In this document: positions 10,217 through 32,776 of the stretch, in pieces
How positions within the stretch are numbered: the stretch's first letter is position 1
Layout: each line of letters opens with the position of its first letter
Assembly: GCA_022865905.1 (NCBI GenBank)
Contig: JALHUM010000358.1
Location: 1-41,617 of the forward strand
Origin: Anaerolineales bacterium
GTDB lineage: Bacteria > Chloroflexota > Anaerolineae > Anaerolineales > Villigracilaceae
Direction: 5' to 3'
DNA length: 41,617 nucleotides
Made by a program: the position numbers and the translations under genes
Notes under the pieces: model-generated
The model's database searches: none
The model's input: the letters and a program-made list of their open reading frames with translations, nothing else
What the model was told of the DNA's origin: nothing

Positions 10217-10286
10217 AAGTAAGAAGTTGGAAGGGAGAAGTTAGAATCGAGAGCGCGCTTTTTTACTTTTTACTTCTCACGTTTTA
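10217..10286. repeat. AGAAGT/ACTTTTT word array between grpE and dnaK
   Basis: The plus strand shows AAGAAGTTGGAAGGGAGAAG, then TTTTTTACTTTTTACTTCTC. These are short words in both orientations (AGAAGT and ACTTCT) that can form an imperfect hairpin. The array starts at the grpE stop codon, whose TAA (10284-10286) is part of the first word. Confidence 0.65.
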
Positions 10287-10913
10287 CTGCGCCACTCTCA
10301 CCATTGCCGGGCGGATGACCCGCTCACCGAGCATGTATCCATTTTGAACGATGGCGGTAACCTGCCCGCTTTCGTAACCCTCGGCCGGCTCTTGCGAAAT
10401 GGCCTCGTGGAAGTTCGGGTCGAACATCTGCCCCTCGGCCTCGATGCGTTTCACGCCCTCGGCCTCCAGGATGGTTTGCAGTTTCCGGTAGATCAGTTCG
10501 ACCCCGTCCGCCCAGGCCAAGTCAGCGGGACGCGCCGCCAGGGCGCGCTCCAGGTCATCCAGAATGGGCAGGTAGCGTCTGACGATGCTGCCGACCGCGT
10601 TCTGGTAAGTTTCAGCCTTCTCGGCGTCGGTGCGGCGCTTGTAGTTCTGGAAGTCGGCCACTGCGCGTTGCCAGCCATCCTTGTATTCGGCGGCCTGCGC
10701 CTGATTTTCTTCGAGCTGTTTTTTCTGCGCCTCGAACTCATCCAATGAAACGGTCTGTCCTGCTTCTACTTCACTTGTGCCTGCCTGCGCCAGTGCCGCA
10801 GGCACAGGTGCGCAAGTGCAGGCAGCAGAAGGTTTGGCAGGGATTTCCGCTGGTGTCTCAAGCGATTCTTGGTTTTCGGGTTCGATGTTCTGTCGTGTCT
10901 TTTTACTGCTCAT
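10284..10913 (-). CDS. grpE: Nucleotide exchange factor GrpE
   Basis: GrpE releases ADP from DnaK. The 209-residue protein has an unstructured N-terminus, a long helix from about residue 55 (DEFEAQKKQLEENQAQ), the dimer-forming core (VADFQNYKRRTDAEK) and the C-terminal beta domain. The beta domain carries the signature FDPNFHEAISQEP and ends with VIQNGYMLGERVIRPAMVRV. The start codon overlaps the hrcA stop by one base (TAATG), so translation is coupled. Residues 32-47 (CTCAPVPAALAQAGTS) are coded by a hairpin repeat inserted in frame in the disordered N-terminus. Two cysteines there are unusual for a GrpE. Confidence 0.96.
   Translation of the reverse strand: MSSKKTRQNIEPENQESLETPAEIPAKPSAACTCAPVPAALAQAGTSEVEAGQTVSLDEFEAQKKQLEENQAQAAEYKDGWQRAVADFQNYKRRTDAEKAETYQNAVGSIVRRYLPILDDLERALAARPADLAWADGVELIYRKLQTILEAEGVKRIEAEGQMFDPNFHEAISQEPAEGYESGQVTAIVQNGYMLGERVIRPAMVRVAQ
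10772..10818. repeat. Hairpin repeat inside the grpE coding region
   Basis: The outer arms CACTTG/CAAGTG and inner arms GCCTGCG/CGCAGGC form a long interrupted hairpin. The core TGCCTGC...GCAGGCA is shared with 27744-27785 and 39412-39432 and is related to the hairpin in the glycine riboswitch (13468-13495). Confidence 0.7.
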
Positions 10914-13209: not shown

Positions 13210-13238
13210 TTGATTTTGTCTCTCACTTCACGTAGAAT
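13210..13238 (+). promoter_or_regulatory. Promoter of the glycine riboswitch / gcv operon
   Basis: TTGATT (13210-13215), 17 bp, TAGAAT (13233-13238). Transcription would begin just before aptamer 1. Confidence 0.72.
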
Positions 13239-13281
13239 ATGACTACAATTGAAACGGTAGTAGGGAAGAGACTTGTGCGTA

Positions 13282-13307
13282 ATGGTAGCCTGCAATCAGG
13301 CTACCAT
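13282..13307. repeat. Hairpin repeat in the P2 arm of glycine aptamer 1
   Basis: A perfect 11-bp stem, ATGGTAGCCTG / CAGGCTACCAT with loop CAAT, is followed by a word array (GCGTAAAGCGTAAAACGTAA). A second copy of the hairpin lies at 30781-30803. Confidence 0.8.
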
Positions 13308-13467
13308 AATGCGTAAAGCGTAAAACGTAACGAGCGCCGAAGGGGCAAGTCCGGATGGCTGGCGAGGCCGGACGAAACTCTCAGGCAAAAGGACCCTGTA
13401 CCGGTTTCCTCTGGAAAGTCACGTGAACGTGACACCGACGGGGCAATCCTTTGGCTTCGGGTCTCGA

Positions 13468-13495
13468 CACCTGCACTTGCATGCAGGTGCAAGTG
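13468..13495. repeat. Hairpin repeat in the P3 arm of glycine aptamer 2
   Basis: CACCTGCA/TGCAGGTG and, alternatively, CACTTGCA/TGCAAGTG can form 8-bp stems. It is related in sequence to the hairpin inside grpE. Confidence 0.65.
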
Positions 13496-13560
13496 TACAC
13501 CGGAAGAATACCGGCTACTCGACCCACCGTTCAGGAGAATCTCTCAGGTGCAAATAACAG

Positions 13561-13596
13561 AGGGCGCACGTTCTATCTGCGTGCGCCCTTTTTGTT
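13561..13596 (+). terminator. Regulatory terminator of the glycine riboswitch
   Basis: AGGGCGCACG (13561-13570) pairs perfectly with CGTGCGCCCT (13580-13589), followed by TTTTGTTTT. The 5' arm overlaps the closing helix of aptamer 2, so it is the expression platform. Confidence 0.9.
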
Positions 13597-13629: not shown

Positions 13630-14007
13630 ATGAACATTCCTTCCAATCTCAAGTTCACCAAAACCGACGAGTGGTTCGACCTGTCCAGCGGCAAAATGGG
13701 CTTGAGCGATTACGCCCAAGGCCAGCTTTCGGATATCGTTTTCGTCGAAATCGTTGTCGCGGTTGGCGAGGCGACAGAGCAGGGCAAGGCGATCGCCTCG
13801 GTCGAGTCGGTCAAGGCCGCCGCGGAGACGTATGCCTCGGCCTCCGGCAAGGTGGTCGCGGTCAATGAAGAGCTTGCCAACAACCCCGAAATCCTCAACA
13901 AAGACCCCTATGGCGCAGGCTGGATGGTTCAAGTCGAGGGCGGCGATGCCTCCGCGCTCATGGATGCGGCCGTATACGAGAAGTATTGCGAAGAAAGAGC
14001 ACAGTAG
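13630..14007 (+). CDS. gcvH: Glycine cleavage system H protein
   Basis: GcvH carries the lipoyl group that shuttles the aminomethyl intermediate between P, T and L proteins. The 125-residue protein has the single lipoyl domain with the attachment lysine K62 in SVESVKAAAETY, and the H-protein ending GAGWMVQVEG. The ATG is preceded by CGAGGAGACACGAA, a good ribosome binding site. It is the first gene behind the glycine riboswitch and is followed by both halves of the P protein. No gcvT or lipoamide dehydrogenase gene is in the window. The TAG stop runs directly into a word array. Confidence 0.96.
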   Translation: MNIPSNLKFTKTDEWFDLSSGKMGLSDYAQGQLSDIVFVEIVVAVGEATEQGKAIASVESVKAAAETYASASGKVVAVNEELANNPEILNKDPYGAGWMVQVEGGDASALMDAAVYEKYCEERAQ

Positions 14008-14140: not shown

Positions 14141-15496
14141 ATGAACTATATCCCAATAAGCCCTAAAGAACGGGACGCGATGCTGGCTGCCATTGGCGTC
14201 AAGAGCCTCGATGATTTATTCAAAGATGTTCCGACCAGGCATCGATTCCCCAAGTTTGACCTGCCACCAGCCCTGACCGAGATGGAGGCCGCCGCTGAAT
14301 TGGGGGAACTTGCCCTCGGCAACGAAACCATCCGCACCGACTTGGTCTCCTTCCTCGGCGCGGGCGCGTACAATCACTACATCCCCTCGGTCGTTGACCA
14401 CATCCAGCGGCGCGGCGAGTTCTACACCGCCTACACCCCCTACCAGCCGGAAATTTCGCAGGGCACACTGCAAGCCATCTTCGAGTACCAGTCCATGATG
14501 GCCGCGCTGACCGGCATGGAGGTCTCGAACGCCTCGCACTACGACGGGGCGACCGCCGTGGCCGAGGCCGTCAACATGGCCTACGCCCAGTTCCGCGGCA
14601 AGCGCACGAAGGTGGTCATCTCACCTACCGTCCACCCTCAATATCGAGAGACCCTGCGCACGTATGTGCAAGGCATGGGACTTGAACTCGTTGGCGATGG
14701 CCCAAAGGCTGACCTCAAGGCGACCCCGGACGATCTACGCTCCACGCTCGACGCAAATACGGCGCTGGCCATCGTGCAATATCCTGATTTCTTTGGCCGC
14801 ATCTATGATTACACCCCACTCATCGAGGCAGCACACGCCCAGGGCGCGCTGGTCTGCGTGGCCGCCAACCCGACTGCACTGGCGCTCTTCAAAACCCCCG
14901 GCGAGATGGGCGCGGACATGGTTGTCGGCGAGGGTCAGCCGCTCGGTATACCCCTTTCCTACGGAGGCCCCTACCTGGGCTTCTTCACTACCCGCAAGCA
15001 GTACATCCACAAGATGGCCGGACGCCTGGTCGGCGAGACGGTGGACAGCCGCGGCCAGCGCGCCTTCGTCATGACCCTGACCGCCCGCGAGCAGCACATC
15101 AAGCGCGAGCGCGCCACCTCCAACATCTGCACCAACCAGGGACTGATGGCGCTGGCCTCCGCCGTGTACCTGTCCGTGCTTGGGCAAAACGGCCTGCACC
15201 AGGTGGCCGAACTGTGTTACCACAAGGCTCACTACGCCGCCGGGCAAATCGCCAAAATCCCCGGCTACTCGCTCTGCTTCGATGCGCCCTTCTTCCACGA
15301 GTTCTCGGTCTGCTGCCCGAAGCCGGTGGAGGCGATCAACGACCACCTGCTCGAACACGGCATCCTGGGCGGCTACGATCTCGGCCAGCACTACCCCTCC
15401 CTCAAGAATCACATGCTGGTGGCCGTGACCGAGATGAACACCAGGGACGAAATCGACGCGCTGGTGGATGCGCTTTCGGAGGTGAGCCATGACTGA
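14141..15496 (+). CDS. gcvPA: Glycine dehydrogenase (decarboxylating) subunit 1
   Basis: This is the N-terminal half of the two-subunit P protein, which decarboxylates glycine with PLP and transfers the aminomethyl group to GcvH. The 451-residue length is typical. Diagnostic segments are MNYIPISPKERDAMLAAIGV, FLGAGAYNHYIPSVVDHI, YTPYQPEISQGTLQAIFEYQ, LSYGGPYLGFFTTRKQYIHK and ATSNICTNQGLMALASAVYL. The catalytic lysine is on the partner subunit. The ribosome binding site GGAG comes from the word array upstream. The 3' end overlaps gcvPB by 8 bp, so the two subunits are translationally linked. Confidence 0.97.
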   Translation: MNYIPISPKERDAMLAAIGVKSLDDLFKDVPTRHRFPKFDLPPALTEMEAAAELGELALGNETIRTDLVSFLGAGAYNHYIPSVVDHIQRRGEFYTAYTPYQPEISQGTLQAIFEYQSMMAALTGMEVSNASHYDGATAVAEAVNMAYAQFRGKRTKVVISPTVHPQYRETLRTYVQGMGLELVGDGPKADLKATPDDLRSTLDANTALAIVQYPDFFGRIYDYTPLIEAAHAQGALVCVAANPTALALFKTPGEMGADMVVGEGQPLGIPLSYGGPYLGFFTTRKQYIHKMAGRLVGETVDSRGQRAFVMTLTAREQHIKRERATSNICTNQGLMALASAVYLSVLGQNGLHQVAELCYHKAHYAAGQIAKIPGYSLCFDAPFFHEFSVCCPKPVEAINDHLLEHGILGGYDLGQHYPSLKNHMLVAVTEMNTRDEIDALVDALSEVSHD

Positions 15497-17003
15497 TTCC
15501 TCGACTACGCTCGGAACAGGCACTTCGACTATGCTCAGAGTTGAACCCACTCTCTTTGAACTTTCATCCCCCGGACGCACCGGCGTCACTTTCCCGGACC
15601 CGGACGTGCCGCGCGCCAAATTGCCCGAGTCCATGCTCCGGGCCGAGCTCCCGCTCCCCGAACTAGCCGAGGTGGACGTGGTGCGTCATTACATGCACCT
15701 CTCGCGCTACAACTACAGCGTGGACAGTGGCTTCTATCCGCTCGGTTCGTGCACGATGAAATACAACCCAAAGATCAACGAGGATACCGCCCGCTTGCCC
15801 GGCTTTGCCTTCACGCATCCGCTCCAGCCGGTCGAGACGGTGCAGGGCAACCTGGCACTGATGGACCAGTTGCAAGAGTGGCTGAAGGAAATCTCCGGCT
15901 TTGCCGCTGTGACTTTGCAGCGCGCAGCCGGCGCACACGGCGAGTTGACCGGCGTGCTCATCATGCGCGCCTATCACAAAGACCGCGGCGATAGCAAGCG
16001 TGTCAAGATGCTCATCCCCGATTCAGCGCATGGGACGAACCCGGCCTCGTCTGGCATGATCGGATTGGAAGTGGTGCAAATCCCGTCCGATTCACGCGGC
16101 AACGTGGACCTGGCTGCCCTCAAATCGCAATGCGACAAGACCGTCGTCGGCCTGATGCTGACCAACCCGAACACACTCGGCCTGTTCGACGAACACGTCG
16201 AGGAGGTCATCGAGATCGTCCACGACTGCGGCGGGCTGGTCTACGGCGACGGGGCCAACCTGAACGCCCTGCTGGGCATCGTCCGCCCTGGCGACCTGGG
16301 CTTCGACATGATGCACTTCAACCTGCACAAGACGTTCTCGACCCCGCACGGGGGCGGAGGCCCAGGCTCGGGTCCGGTGGGTGTCGCCGCGCGCCTGGCC
16401 GAGTTCCTGCCCTCGCCCATCGTCGGCGTCATCGAAGAGGGCGAAGAGGAAATGCCTCCATTGTTTGGCTTCGTCACCCCGAAAAAGACGATTGGCCGCC
16501 TCAAAGCCTTTCATGGTCATTTCGGCATGTTGGTGCGCGCTTATACTTACATTGCCATGCACGGCGCGGACGGGTTGCGCCAGGTGGCCGAGTATTCGGT
16601 GCTGAATGCCAACTATCTCTTAGCACGTTTACGGAACACATACCACGTACCCTATGACCGCATCTGTATGCACGAATTCGTGGTAGAAGGGAAAGTTGAA
16701 GGCTCGGATATCCGCGCCCTGGATATCGCCAAGCGGCTGATGGATTACGACTTCCACCCGCCGACTAACTACTTCCCGCTCATCGTCCACGAGGCGCTGA
16801 TGATCGAGCCGACCGAGACCGAGAACAAGGACACCCTCGACGCCTTCGCCGACGCCCTCATCAAGATAGCAGAGGAGGCGAAAACGACCCCAGACCTGCT
16901 CCACGAGGCCCCGCACAAAACCCCCTTCGGGCGCATGGACGAGGTCAAGGCCGCCCGTGAATTGGTTCTTTGTTGTTGGTTGCCGGAAAACTACAGCGAT
17001 TGA
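15489..17003 (+). CDS. gcvPB: Glycine dehydrogenase (decarboxylating) subunit 2
   Basis: This is the C-terminal, PLP-binding half of glycine decarboxylase (504 residues). The PLP lysine lies in NLHKTFSTPHGGGGPGSGPV. Other family segments are FYPLGSCTMKYNPKINED, TLQRAAGAHGELTGVLIMRA and DSAHGTNPASSGMIGLEV. The first 16 residues (including SSTTLGTGTSTM) are coded by two tandem copies of a CTTCGACTAYGCTC-type repeat; the conserved protein begins around LRVEPTLFELS. The C-terminus (LCCWLPENYSD) is not conserved as far as I can judge. A degenerate echo of the 3' end may lie just downstream (about 17013-17057). It overlaps gcvPA by 8 bp. Confidence 0.96.
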   Translation: MTDSSTTLGTGTSTMLRVEPTLFELSSPGRTGVTFPDPDVPRAKLPESMLRAELPLPELAEVDVVRHYMHLSRYNYSVDSGFYPLGSCTMKYNPKINEDTARLPGFAFTHPLQPVETVQGNLALMDQLQEWLKEISGFAAVTLQRAAGAHGELTGVLIMRAYHKDRGDSKRVKMLIPDSAHGTNPASSGMIGLEVVQIPSDSRGNVDLAALKSQCDKTVVGLMLTNPNTLGLFDEHVEEVIEIVHDCGGLVYGDGANLNALLGIVRPGDLGFDMMHFNLHKTFSTPHGGGGPGSGPVGVAARLAEFLPSPIVGVIEEGEEEMPPLFGFVTPKKTIGRLKAFHGHFGMLVRAYTYIAMHGADGLRQVAEYSVLNANYLLARLRNTYHVPYDRICMHEFVVEGKVEGSDIRALDIAKRLMDYDFHPPTNYFPLIVHEALMIEPTETENKDTLDAFADALIKIAEEAKTTPDLLHEAPHKTPFGRMDEVKAARELVLCCWLPENYSD

Positions 17004-30780: not shown

Positions 30781-30803
30781 ATGGTAGCCTTGAAGGCTAC
30801 CAT
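30781..30803. repeat. Hairpin repeat, second copy of the ATGGTAGCCT family
   Basis: ATGGTAGCCT, loop TGA, AGGCTACCAT. It matches the arms of the hairpin in glycine aptamer 1. Its first two bases complete a TATAAT (30777-30782). Confidence 0.75.
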
Positions 30804-30838
30804 AATTGTGTTCATGAACCTTCTCGAGGGAGATTGTG

Positions 30839-32776
30839 ATGCCTGATCGTCGATCTGTTTTCGAAGGCTTTCTCGTTTTCCTGGTTGTTCTTTTAGCCGC
30901 CTGTGGGCCAAAGGGTACCTCCACGCCAACGCCCACATCCATACCCATATCCTCAACGCCCACGCCAACTCCCACGCCGCCGCTCACGTTGACGGTCTGC
31001 CTGGGGGAGGAGCCTGCCAGCCTATATCCGTTTGGGAATCTCTCGTCCGCGGCGCGCAGCATCCTGGCGGCAATCTATGATGGCCCAATGGATACCAATT
31101 CTTATGGCTACCAACCGGTCATCCTGAAAAAGTTACCCAGCCTGGCGGATGGGGACGCGCTGATCAGCGTCGTTTCTGTCTACGTCGGCGACGAGGTAGT
31201 GGACGCGGACAACCTGCCGGTCACGCTGGCGCCTGGCGTGCGCTTCCGGCCGAGCGGCTGCCGGGGCGACGACTGCGCGGTTGTCTACGACGGCAAGGGC
31301 GAGATCCAGATGGATCAGATGGTGGTCAATTTCAGCCTGCTGTCCGGCCTCTATTGGTCGGATGGTATGCCCCTGACGGTGGAGGACTCGGTCTATTCAT
31401 ACGATCTGGCTACCTATCCCGACACGCCCGGTTCCACGTACCTGATAGACCGCACCAAAGCGTATGAGGCCGTGGACGAACAGACCGTCCAGTGGTGGGG
31501 TAAGCCAGGTTACCTCGACCCAACCTACTTCACCAATTTCTGGACGCCCTATCCCAAGCATTTGTGGAGCCAATACACACCGGCCGAGCTTCCTGACACT
31601 GAAGTGGCTGCCCGCGAACCGGTTGGCTGGGGAGCTTACGTAGTAGAAGATTGGGTGAGCAGCGATTCCATCACGTTGAAGAAGAATCCTTACTACTTCC
31701 GGGCGGGTGAGGGCTTGCCAAAGTTCGATACGCTGGTATTCCGTTTTATCACCACGCCGGAGACCGCCATCAGCGAATTGATCGCCGGAAAATGCGACCT
31801 CCTAGATGCCAGCCTGCACCTAGACGGACAGGTCGGTATCCTAAAGAGCTTCGATTCTCAAGGTCAGCTCAAAGCTATCTTCTCCACGACGGACGTGATG
31901 GAACGCTTCGATTTCGGAATCCGCCCGGCCAGCTATGATGATGACTATAACCTCGATGCAGGCGACCGCCTGGATTTCCTGGGCGACGTGCGCGTCCGCC
32001 AGGCGATTGCCATGTGCCTGGACCGACAGCAGGTCGTGGATACAGTGCTGCATGGGCTGACGACGGTGCCCAATTCTTACGTGCCCGCCGACCATCCGCT
32101 CTACAACCCAGACGTGAAGCCATATCCCTTCGACGTGACGGCAGCTAGTCAACTGCTCGAACAGGCCGGCTGGCGGGATCAGGACAACGATCCCGGCACG
32201 CCGCGCCAGGCCCGGGGTATTGCAGACATCCCGGCCGGCACGCCGCTAGTCTTGGATTATTGGACGACCGGCGCGGCCCAACGCAGGCAGGTCAGTGAGA
32301 TCCTGGCCGGGTCGCTGGCCCAGTGCGGGATCCAGGTCAACTTGCAATATTACGATCCCACCGAGCTATATGCCCAAGGCCCGGATGGGCCGTTGTTTGG
32401 GCGCAAGTTCGACCTGGCCGAGTTTGCCATGGGCAGCACAGGTATGGAACCGCCTTGTGAGTGGTTCACAAGCGCCGAGGTGCCGAGCGCCGCTAATCAT
32501 TGGGTCGGCGCCAACATCAGCGGTTACACCAGCGCGGCTTATGATGAGGCCTGTCTCGCCGCCAAAGGCTCTTTGCCGGGCGAACCGGCTTATGCAACTG
32601 GCTATCACGACTCGCAGGCTATCTCCTCCGAGGAGTTGCCCATTGTTCCGTTGTACTGGCGGTTGAAAGTGGCCGCCTCCCGTCTCGATTTCTGCAACTT
32701 CAGCCTCGATCCCAGCGCGGCCAGCGACTTGTGGAATCTCGAAGCTTTCGATGATGGAGAGGCCTGCGCCCCTTGA
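30839..32776 (+). CDS. ABC transporter substrate-binding lipoprotein, peptide/nickel (SBP family 5)
   Basis: A lipid-anchored extracellular binding protein (645 residues) of the oligopeptide/dipeptide/nickel class. Signal peptide with lipobox VVLLAAC (Cys22), then a Thr/Pro-rich linker (TSTPTPTSIPIS). The mature part starts LTVCLGEEPASLYPFGNLSS and has YDGPMDTNSYGYQPVILKKL, LYWSDGMPLTVEDSVYSYDL and VRQAIAMCLDRQQVVDTVLH, all typical of SBP_bac_5. A GTG one codon before the ATG is possible; GAGGGAG gives the ribosome binding site. No permease or ATPase genes follow, so the transporter partners are elsewhere or this is a solitary receptor. Its stop codon overlaps the promoter of the pyr operon. 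Confidence 0.93.
   Translation: MPDRRSVFEGFLVFLVVLLAACGPKGTSTPTPTSIPISSTPTPTPTPPLTLTVCLGEEPASLYPFGNLSSAARSILAAIYDGPMDTNSYGYQPVILKKLPSLADGDALISVVSVYVGDEVVDADNLPVTLAPGVRFRPSGCRGDDCAVVYDGKGEIQMDQMVVNFSLLSGLYWSDGMPLTVEDSVYSYDLATYPDTPGSTYLIDRTKAYEAVDEQTVQWWGKPGYLDPTYFTNFWTPYPKHLWSQYTPAELPDTEVAAREPVGWGAYVVEDWVSSDSITLKKNPYYFRAGEGLPKFDTLVFRFITTPETAISELIAGKCDLLDASLHLDGQVGILKSFDSQGQLKAIFSTTDVMERFDFGIRPASYDDDYNLDAGDRLDFLGDVRVRQAIAMCLDRQQVVDTVLHGLTTVPNSYVPADHPLYNPDVKPYPFDVTAASQLLEQAGWRDQDNDPGTPRQARGIADIPAGTPLVLDYWTTGAAQRRQVSEILAGSLAQCGIQVNLQYYDPTELYAQGPDGPLFGRKFDLAEFAMGSTGMEPPCEWFTSAEVPSAANHWVGANISGYTSAAYDEACLAAKGSLPGEPAYATGYHDSQAISSEELPIVPLYWRLKVAASRLDFCNFSLDPSAASDLWNLEAFDDGEACAP

Follow-up and report, generated by a model that had tools for sequence, protein, structure and literature searches.

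The gcv leader of an Anaerolineales bacterium (G000) is, with high probability, an ordinary tandem glycine riboswitch, likely an ON switch, into whose tolerant P2 and P3b loops dispersed palindromes have been inserted repeatedly while the core fold was kept. Glycine binding would stabilise P1 of aptamer 2, which would compete with an overlapping terminator upstream of gcvH-gcvPA-gcvPB, and the lineage's dispersed palindromic repeats would have entered two apical loops, that of P2 in aptamer 1 and that of P3b in aptamer 2, on repeated occasions. We analysed the whole stretch of DNA that contains this leader (41,617 nt, hereafter the window). Its source genome, G000, is a 3.17-Mb draft of 359 contigs with 5% contamination, and the comparison set comprised 61 related genomes, four of them in the genus; G001 and G002 are congeners of G000. 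The nearest named relatives of gcvH come from Anaerolineales/Anaerolineae bins, among them MNXK01000047.1, which is of the same genus, and a partial 16S rRNA gene lies at the contig edge (1-483, minus strand).

A tandem glycine riboswitch with extra sequence in two apical loops

The leader and the operon behind it comprise the following features, all on the plus strand (window coordinates).

13210-13238, plus strand: sigma-70-like promoter of the gcv leader, TTGATT-17-TAGAAT, from a consensus scan (9/12 matches)
13252-13406, plus strand: glycine riboswitch aptamer 1 (RF00504, 44.7 bits, E 4.5e-06, whole window searched)
13401-13570, plus strand: glycine riboswitch aptamer 2 (RF00504, 43.5 bits, searched on its own)
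13559-13591, plus strand: intrinsic terminator; its 5' arm overlaps the 3' P1 strand of aptamer 2 (CAGAGG)
13630-14007, plus strand: gcvH, glycine cleavage H protein (PF01597, E 1.4e-30)
14141-15496, plus strand: gcvPA, glycine decarboxylase P subunit 1 (PF02347, E 6.3e-134)
15489-17003, plus strand: gcvPB, glycine decarboxylase P subunit 2 (PF21478 and PF02347)

Both aptamers score above the RF00504 gathering threshold of 32 bits, and together with the terminator overlapping P1 and gcvH-gcvPA-gcvPB downstream they make up a leader of the RF00504 tandem type. The G000 leader differs from that type in two apical loops, P2 of aptamer 1 with 53 extra nt and P3b of aptamer 2 with 81, and this extra sequence consists largely of dispersed repeats. 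Infernal, a check proposed in the first-pass annotation of this DNA, assigns 53 inserted positions to the terminal loop of P2 and 81 to that of P3b, outside the conserved helices, none of which is interrupted. The binding cores and the P1/terminator overlap are intact, as that annotation had stated, and the CAGAGGGCGCACG stretch at the overlap is identical in the congeners. By analogy with known gcv leaders, the G000 leader is most likely a glycine ON switch that acts by antitermination. Unconstrained MFE folding of the whole G000 leader recovered the core helices only in part, with the inserts folding locally, and recovered most core helices of the G001 leader; we judged this folding unreliable for the core.

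The tolerance of insertions at the two loops is well supported. The apical loops of P2 and P3b can accept extra sequence because they are unconserved and probably face away from the binding and inter-aptamer surfaces. Since each insert is self-complementary, it would form its own hairpin atop a pre-existing stem and would thus keep the core fold; with the core and the P1/terminator switch untouched, such insertions, presumably near-neutral, would survive selection.

The insert in aptamer 1 is a dispersed 53-nt element

The following copies and units bear on the P2 arm of aptamer 1.

13276-13328, plus strand: dispersed element of 53 nt within the P2 loop of aptamer 1 (TGCGTAATGGTAGCC...AAAACGT), with a 96% identical 53-nt copy at L198:4692-4743
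13282-13307, plus strand: ATGGTAGCC..GGCTACCAT palindrome, dispersed in the genome
30781-30803, plus strand: second copy of the ATGGTAGCC palindrome in the window, with ORF 30836-32776 ~34 nt downstream

The element combines the ATGGTAGCC..GGCTACCAT palindrome and CGTAAA words in one 53-nt unit. Its palindrome, which the first-pass annotation had recognised as ATGGTAGCCTG/CAGGCTACCAT in the P2 arm, reads ATGGTAGCCTG-CAAT-CAGGCTACCAT and is followed by GCGTAAA words at 13311-13324; the sequence at 30781-30803, put forward as its relative, is a true one. The same annotation had singled out the GCGTAAA array. As a lone word, GCGTAAA is no more frequent in the window than chance predicts (3 occurrences, 3.5 expected), but the array does belong to the repeat: by BLAST, the L198 copy in the same genome matches all 53 nt, CGTAAA words included, and another locus has a 27-nt exact match to the word part without the palindrome. 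The element length measured by BLAST equals the length of the Infernal insertion, and the two values were obtained independently. Excision of 13276-13328 leaves a 12-nt P2 arm (ACTTG joined to AACGAGC), and a 12-nt arm is also found in G004 and G011.

The palindrome is multicopy well above chance, as a dispersed palindromic repeat should be, with 31 sites in the G000 genome at no more than 3 mismatches (reversed-pattern control, 0) and 70 sites of the looser form GGTAGCCN0-30GGCTACC (control, 1). When all 61 genomes were searched, it was present in 4/4 genus genomes and in 0/57 other relatives. At L203:33-74, L191:14248 and L208:7519, a dispersed CCCTGGC..GCCAGGG hairpin sits in the loop of the ATGGTAGCC palindrome. 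Their shared junctions suggest that a single composite may have spread, and we did not count composite GGTAGCC elements as independent nestings.

Intergenic palindromes with arms of at least 10 occur at 0.61/kb, a density estimated on 357 kb of sampled contigs, some of them chosen for carrying copies. One palindrome in a 0.35-kb leader is therefore unremarkable on its own; what carries weight is that inserts recur at the same two sites. An insertion hotspot in the leader, which we also considered, is unsupported at this density.

Aptamer 2 holds one hairpin nested in another

Two further units were identified in the P3b arm of aptamer 2.

13459-13525, plus strand: outer hairpin of the P3b arm in aptamer 2, GGGTCTCGA^TACACCGGAAGAATACCGGCTACTCGACCC, dispersed, with the interruption at CGA^TAC (pattern search)
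13468-13495, plus strand: inner nested hairpin CACCTGCACTTGCATGCAGGTGCAAGTG, a 28-nt unit (dispersed pattern and contexts)

The first-pass annotation had correctly placed a hairpin, CACCTGCACTTGCATGCAGGTG at 13468-13489, in this arm; the stretch lies inside the 28-nt unit and is the inner hairpin only. Because this CACCTGC hairpin is nested in the TCTCGATAC..CTACTCGA hairpin, the leader holds three dispersed repeats instead of two. The earlier reading, that a regulatory RNA had absorbed two repeat insertions at tolerated sites, thus survives as an interpretation with its number corrected, and the leader is one of many such cases in its family.

Both hairpins are dispersed. The inner hairpin is found in 17/61 genomes (control, 0), and a gapped pattern gives, in its own genome, the window copy and 7 more among the matches listed; an exact-spacing search had suggested a single copy, a result overturned by these dispersed copies. 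The outer hairpin, searched as TCTCGATACN4-34CTACTCGA, is found in 30/61 genomes (control, 0), and the nesting of inner in outer recurs at locus L241 in G002. We also considered whether Anaerolineales hairpin repeats prefer the loops of existing hairpins, as DNA cruciforms or single-stranded DNA, with riboswitch arms as landing sites that grow by nested insertion; this idea is speculative, and we give it a small but real chance.

A nested palindrome, CACTTGTGCCTGC..GCAGGCACAGGTGCGCAAGTG, lies at 10772-10818 inside ORF 10284-10913 (minus strand). Its proposed kinship with the aptamer 2 hairpin was not borne out, as neither pattern search nor BLAST linked it to the CACCTGC hairpin, and it is possibly a distant relative of that family.

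Congeners carry different repeats at the same two loops

With the arms cut, core identity is 81.5% for G000/G001, 88.1% for G000/G002 and 80.5% for G001/G002, whereas the arms of the three leaders do not align, and the inserts at the same sites are unrelated and mostly dispersed repeats. The comparison of close relatives suggested in the first-pass annotation thus came out in its favour: neither congener has the same long arms, and unrelated arms stand on cores that are 80-88% identical. In P2, G001 has a 31-nt palindrome, of which its genome contains one more exact copy, and G002 has a 96-nt element bounded by 16-bp terminal inverted repeats. Relatives of the latter over its full length (76-79%) occur in G003, and a second pair of its ends lies in G002. 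In aptamer 2, TAGTYNNN words make up a hairpin in the P3b arm of G002, of a type dispersed in 26/61 genomes; the P3b arm of G001 is short. Excision of the aptamer 1 inserts leaves P2 arms of 12-18 nt, next to a family minimum of 12 and a median of 25. As the repeats in these arms differ from one congener to the next, mobile hairpins seem to have entered them repeatedly, presumably by transposition. The three leaders amount to a natural insertion-tolerance experiment, with a nearly identical core and different repeats at the same two loops, and they mark where a glycine riboswitch can be extended. An exact DNA-level empty riboswitch site in a very close strain was not found; the G001 aptamer 2 arm is shorter, with diverged flanks.

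Local events can give rise to such hairpins, and the TAGTYNNN arrays look like products of slippage, as might be expected if the arms had arisen in place by inverted duplication or template switching and were not copies of mobile repeats. We regard such an origin as quite improbable in general, given the near-identical copies that the inserts have within their own genomes (53 nt at 96% in G000, 31 nt exact in G001) and the full-length relatives of the G002 insert in G003. These sibling copies disfavour it for the P2 inserts; some P3b arrays may have arisen in this way. A metagenome-bin assembly artefact that joined repeats to a riboswitch is barely credible, even though the draft has 359 contigs and 5% contamination: a typical read is longer than the repeats, the cores continue without a break into gcvH, and the same kind of insertion is present in two separately assembled congeners.

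Two side observations concern these repeats. The 8-nt TAGTYNNN words form arrays, often followed by their complement to give long hairpins, in 26/61 genomes (G042, G057, G060 and others; for example L232:2112-2161), and the 7-nt CGTAANN word arrays resemble them. In G001, a further insertion, containing a hairpin of the dispersed type (CCTGGCCTAGCCCGCCAGGGCAGGC), lies between the terminator and gcvH (L033:420-540).

Arm length varies at the same two sites across the family

Glycine aptamers were found in 54/61 relatives, mostly in tandem, and 41 leaders were parsed into an arm table, in which three (G009, G027 and G060) are mis-split by the parser. Within this table, the three mis-split leaders included, the P2 arm of aptamer 1 measures 12-145 nt but its P3 stays close to 27 nt, and the P3b arm of aptamer 2 reaches 143 nt but its P2 stays close to 16 nt. 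Strong length variation across the family is confined to these P2 and P3b arms. At the base of P2, pairing is maintained while the sequence varies, with 88% paired in aptamer 1 (67% when shuffled) and 84% in aptamer 2 (59% when shuffled); the three mis-split leaders were excluded from this test.

The long arms could instead be a lineage-specific functional extension, for example a protein-binding element or one that sets the pace of folding, selected as long hairpins for which repeats were merely the source sequence. The P3b arm of aptamer 2 does exceed 40 nt in 23/41 leaders (again counting the three mis-split ones), and many arms, ~11 of those in P3b, are long TAGTYNNN word hairpins. Arms of 12-25 nt nevertheless occupy the same sites in the same family, and the sequence, length and repeat type of the arms vary between congeners, with arm sequence conserved nowhere. 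We therefore consider a selected extension unlikely and favour repeated insertion into tolerant loops.

The palindrome also lies in frame in protein genes

Of 35 sampled copies of the ATGGTAGCC palindrome, about 15 fall inside ORFs, and in several protein genes the copy is in frame. The following ORFs carry it in frame and are apparently intact.

L190:3987-5327, minus strand: ORF with in-frame palindrome
L192:12759-13808: ORF with in-frame palindrome
L199:13811-15196: ORF with in-frame palindrome
L195:10741-13023, minus strand: ORF with in-frame palindrome
L206:6735-8675, minus strand: ORF with in-frame palindrome
L189:16578-17741: ORF with in-frame palindrome
L194:12253-13149: ORF with in-frame palindrome

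The host ORFs include diaminopimelate (DAP)-decarboxylase-like, MeaB-like and HflX-like ones, and the in-frame palindrome often encodes GSxxSGYHY; its form with an 8-nt spacer is a 27-nt unit of nine codons.

A perfect inverted repeat that is dispersed, with a second window copy in a promoter region, could also be an operator for a DNA-binding regulator, present in the leader by chance. This is very improbable indeed for a palindrome whose spacer measures 2-8 nt, or as much as 29 nt where a hairpin is nested in it, that occurs in tandem arrays and so often within ORFs, and whose riboswitch copy sits downstream of the promoter.

In the DAP-decarboxylase-like ORF, the nine-residue block encoded by the palindrome is missing from solved homologues. 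For a lipoprotein-like ORF of G000, the orthologue in G001 is shorter by exactly 27 nt at each of two places: a whole element is absent at one, and one unit of a tandem pair at the other. These exact absences, which supply the empty sites expected of a mobile palindromic repeat, indicate that the element comes and goes as a unit; on the evidence of the G001 sites, the palindrome is inserted or duplicated as a frame-keeping 27-nt unit. Only these two cases were used, because the alignments of the HflX-like and MeaB-like copies to solved homologues did not clearly span the element.

Relation to known palindromic repeats

The Rickettsia palindromic elements (RPE) occur in protein genes, tmRNA and RNase P RNA and measure 105-146 bp (PMC2229807). 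The likeness lies in short palindromes that are in frame in protein genes and inside structured RNAs, here the DAP-decarboxylase-like ORF, the lipoprotein-like ORF and the riboswitch, and it is one of behaviour, not ancestry. The unit here is only 26-27 nt against ~105-146 bp (PMC2229807), the phylum is another, and the RNA host is a riboswitch aptamer.

GTAG REPs are multicopy palindromes of 20-40 bp, some of them in genes, that have been reported from Chloroflexi and are associated with RAYT transposases (PMC3733652). The repeat described here is likewise a short multicopy palindrome with some copies in genes, and PF01797 Y1 transposase proteins are present in 4/4 genus genomes. It differs in that GTAG lies inside the paired stem on both sides and is not a tag at one end, and the palindrome flanks none of the ten Y1 transposase (PF01797) loci read, being absent within ~1.5 kb of each.

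The leader of the pneumococcal trp operon is a composite in which two T-box riboswitches, apparently still functional, flank a BOX element (PMC3049150). That leader resembles ours as a composite of repeat and riboswitches, but its repeat stands between two switches, whereas here the repeats are inside aptamer arms. Genomic repeats in a structured RNA gene offer a further parallel: STRR repeats are reported within cyanobacterial RNase P RNA (Vioque 1997, title cited in PMC2858038), a case of tandem repeats in a catalytic RNA, unlike the riboswitch inserts here.

In the open-access literature we found no published case of repeats inside riboswitch aptamer arms. With the present leader, a riboswitch aptamer joins the short list of structured RNAs that host or adjoin palindromic repeats (tmRNA, RNase P RNA and T-box leaders), and a Chloroflexota repeat family enters both RNA and protein genes at a frame-keeping size of 27 nt.
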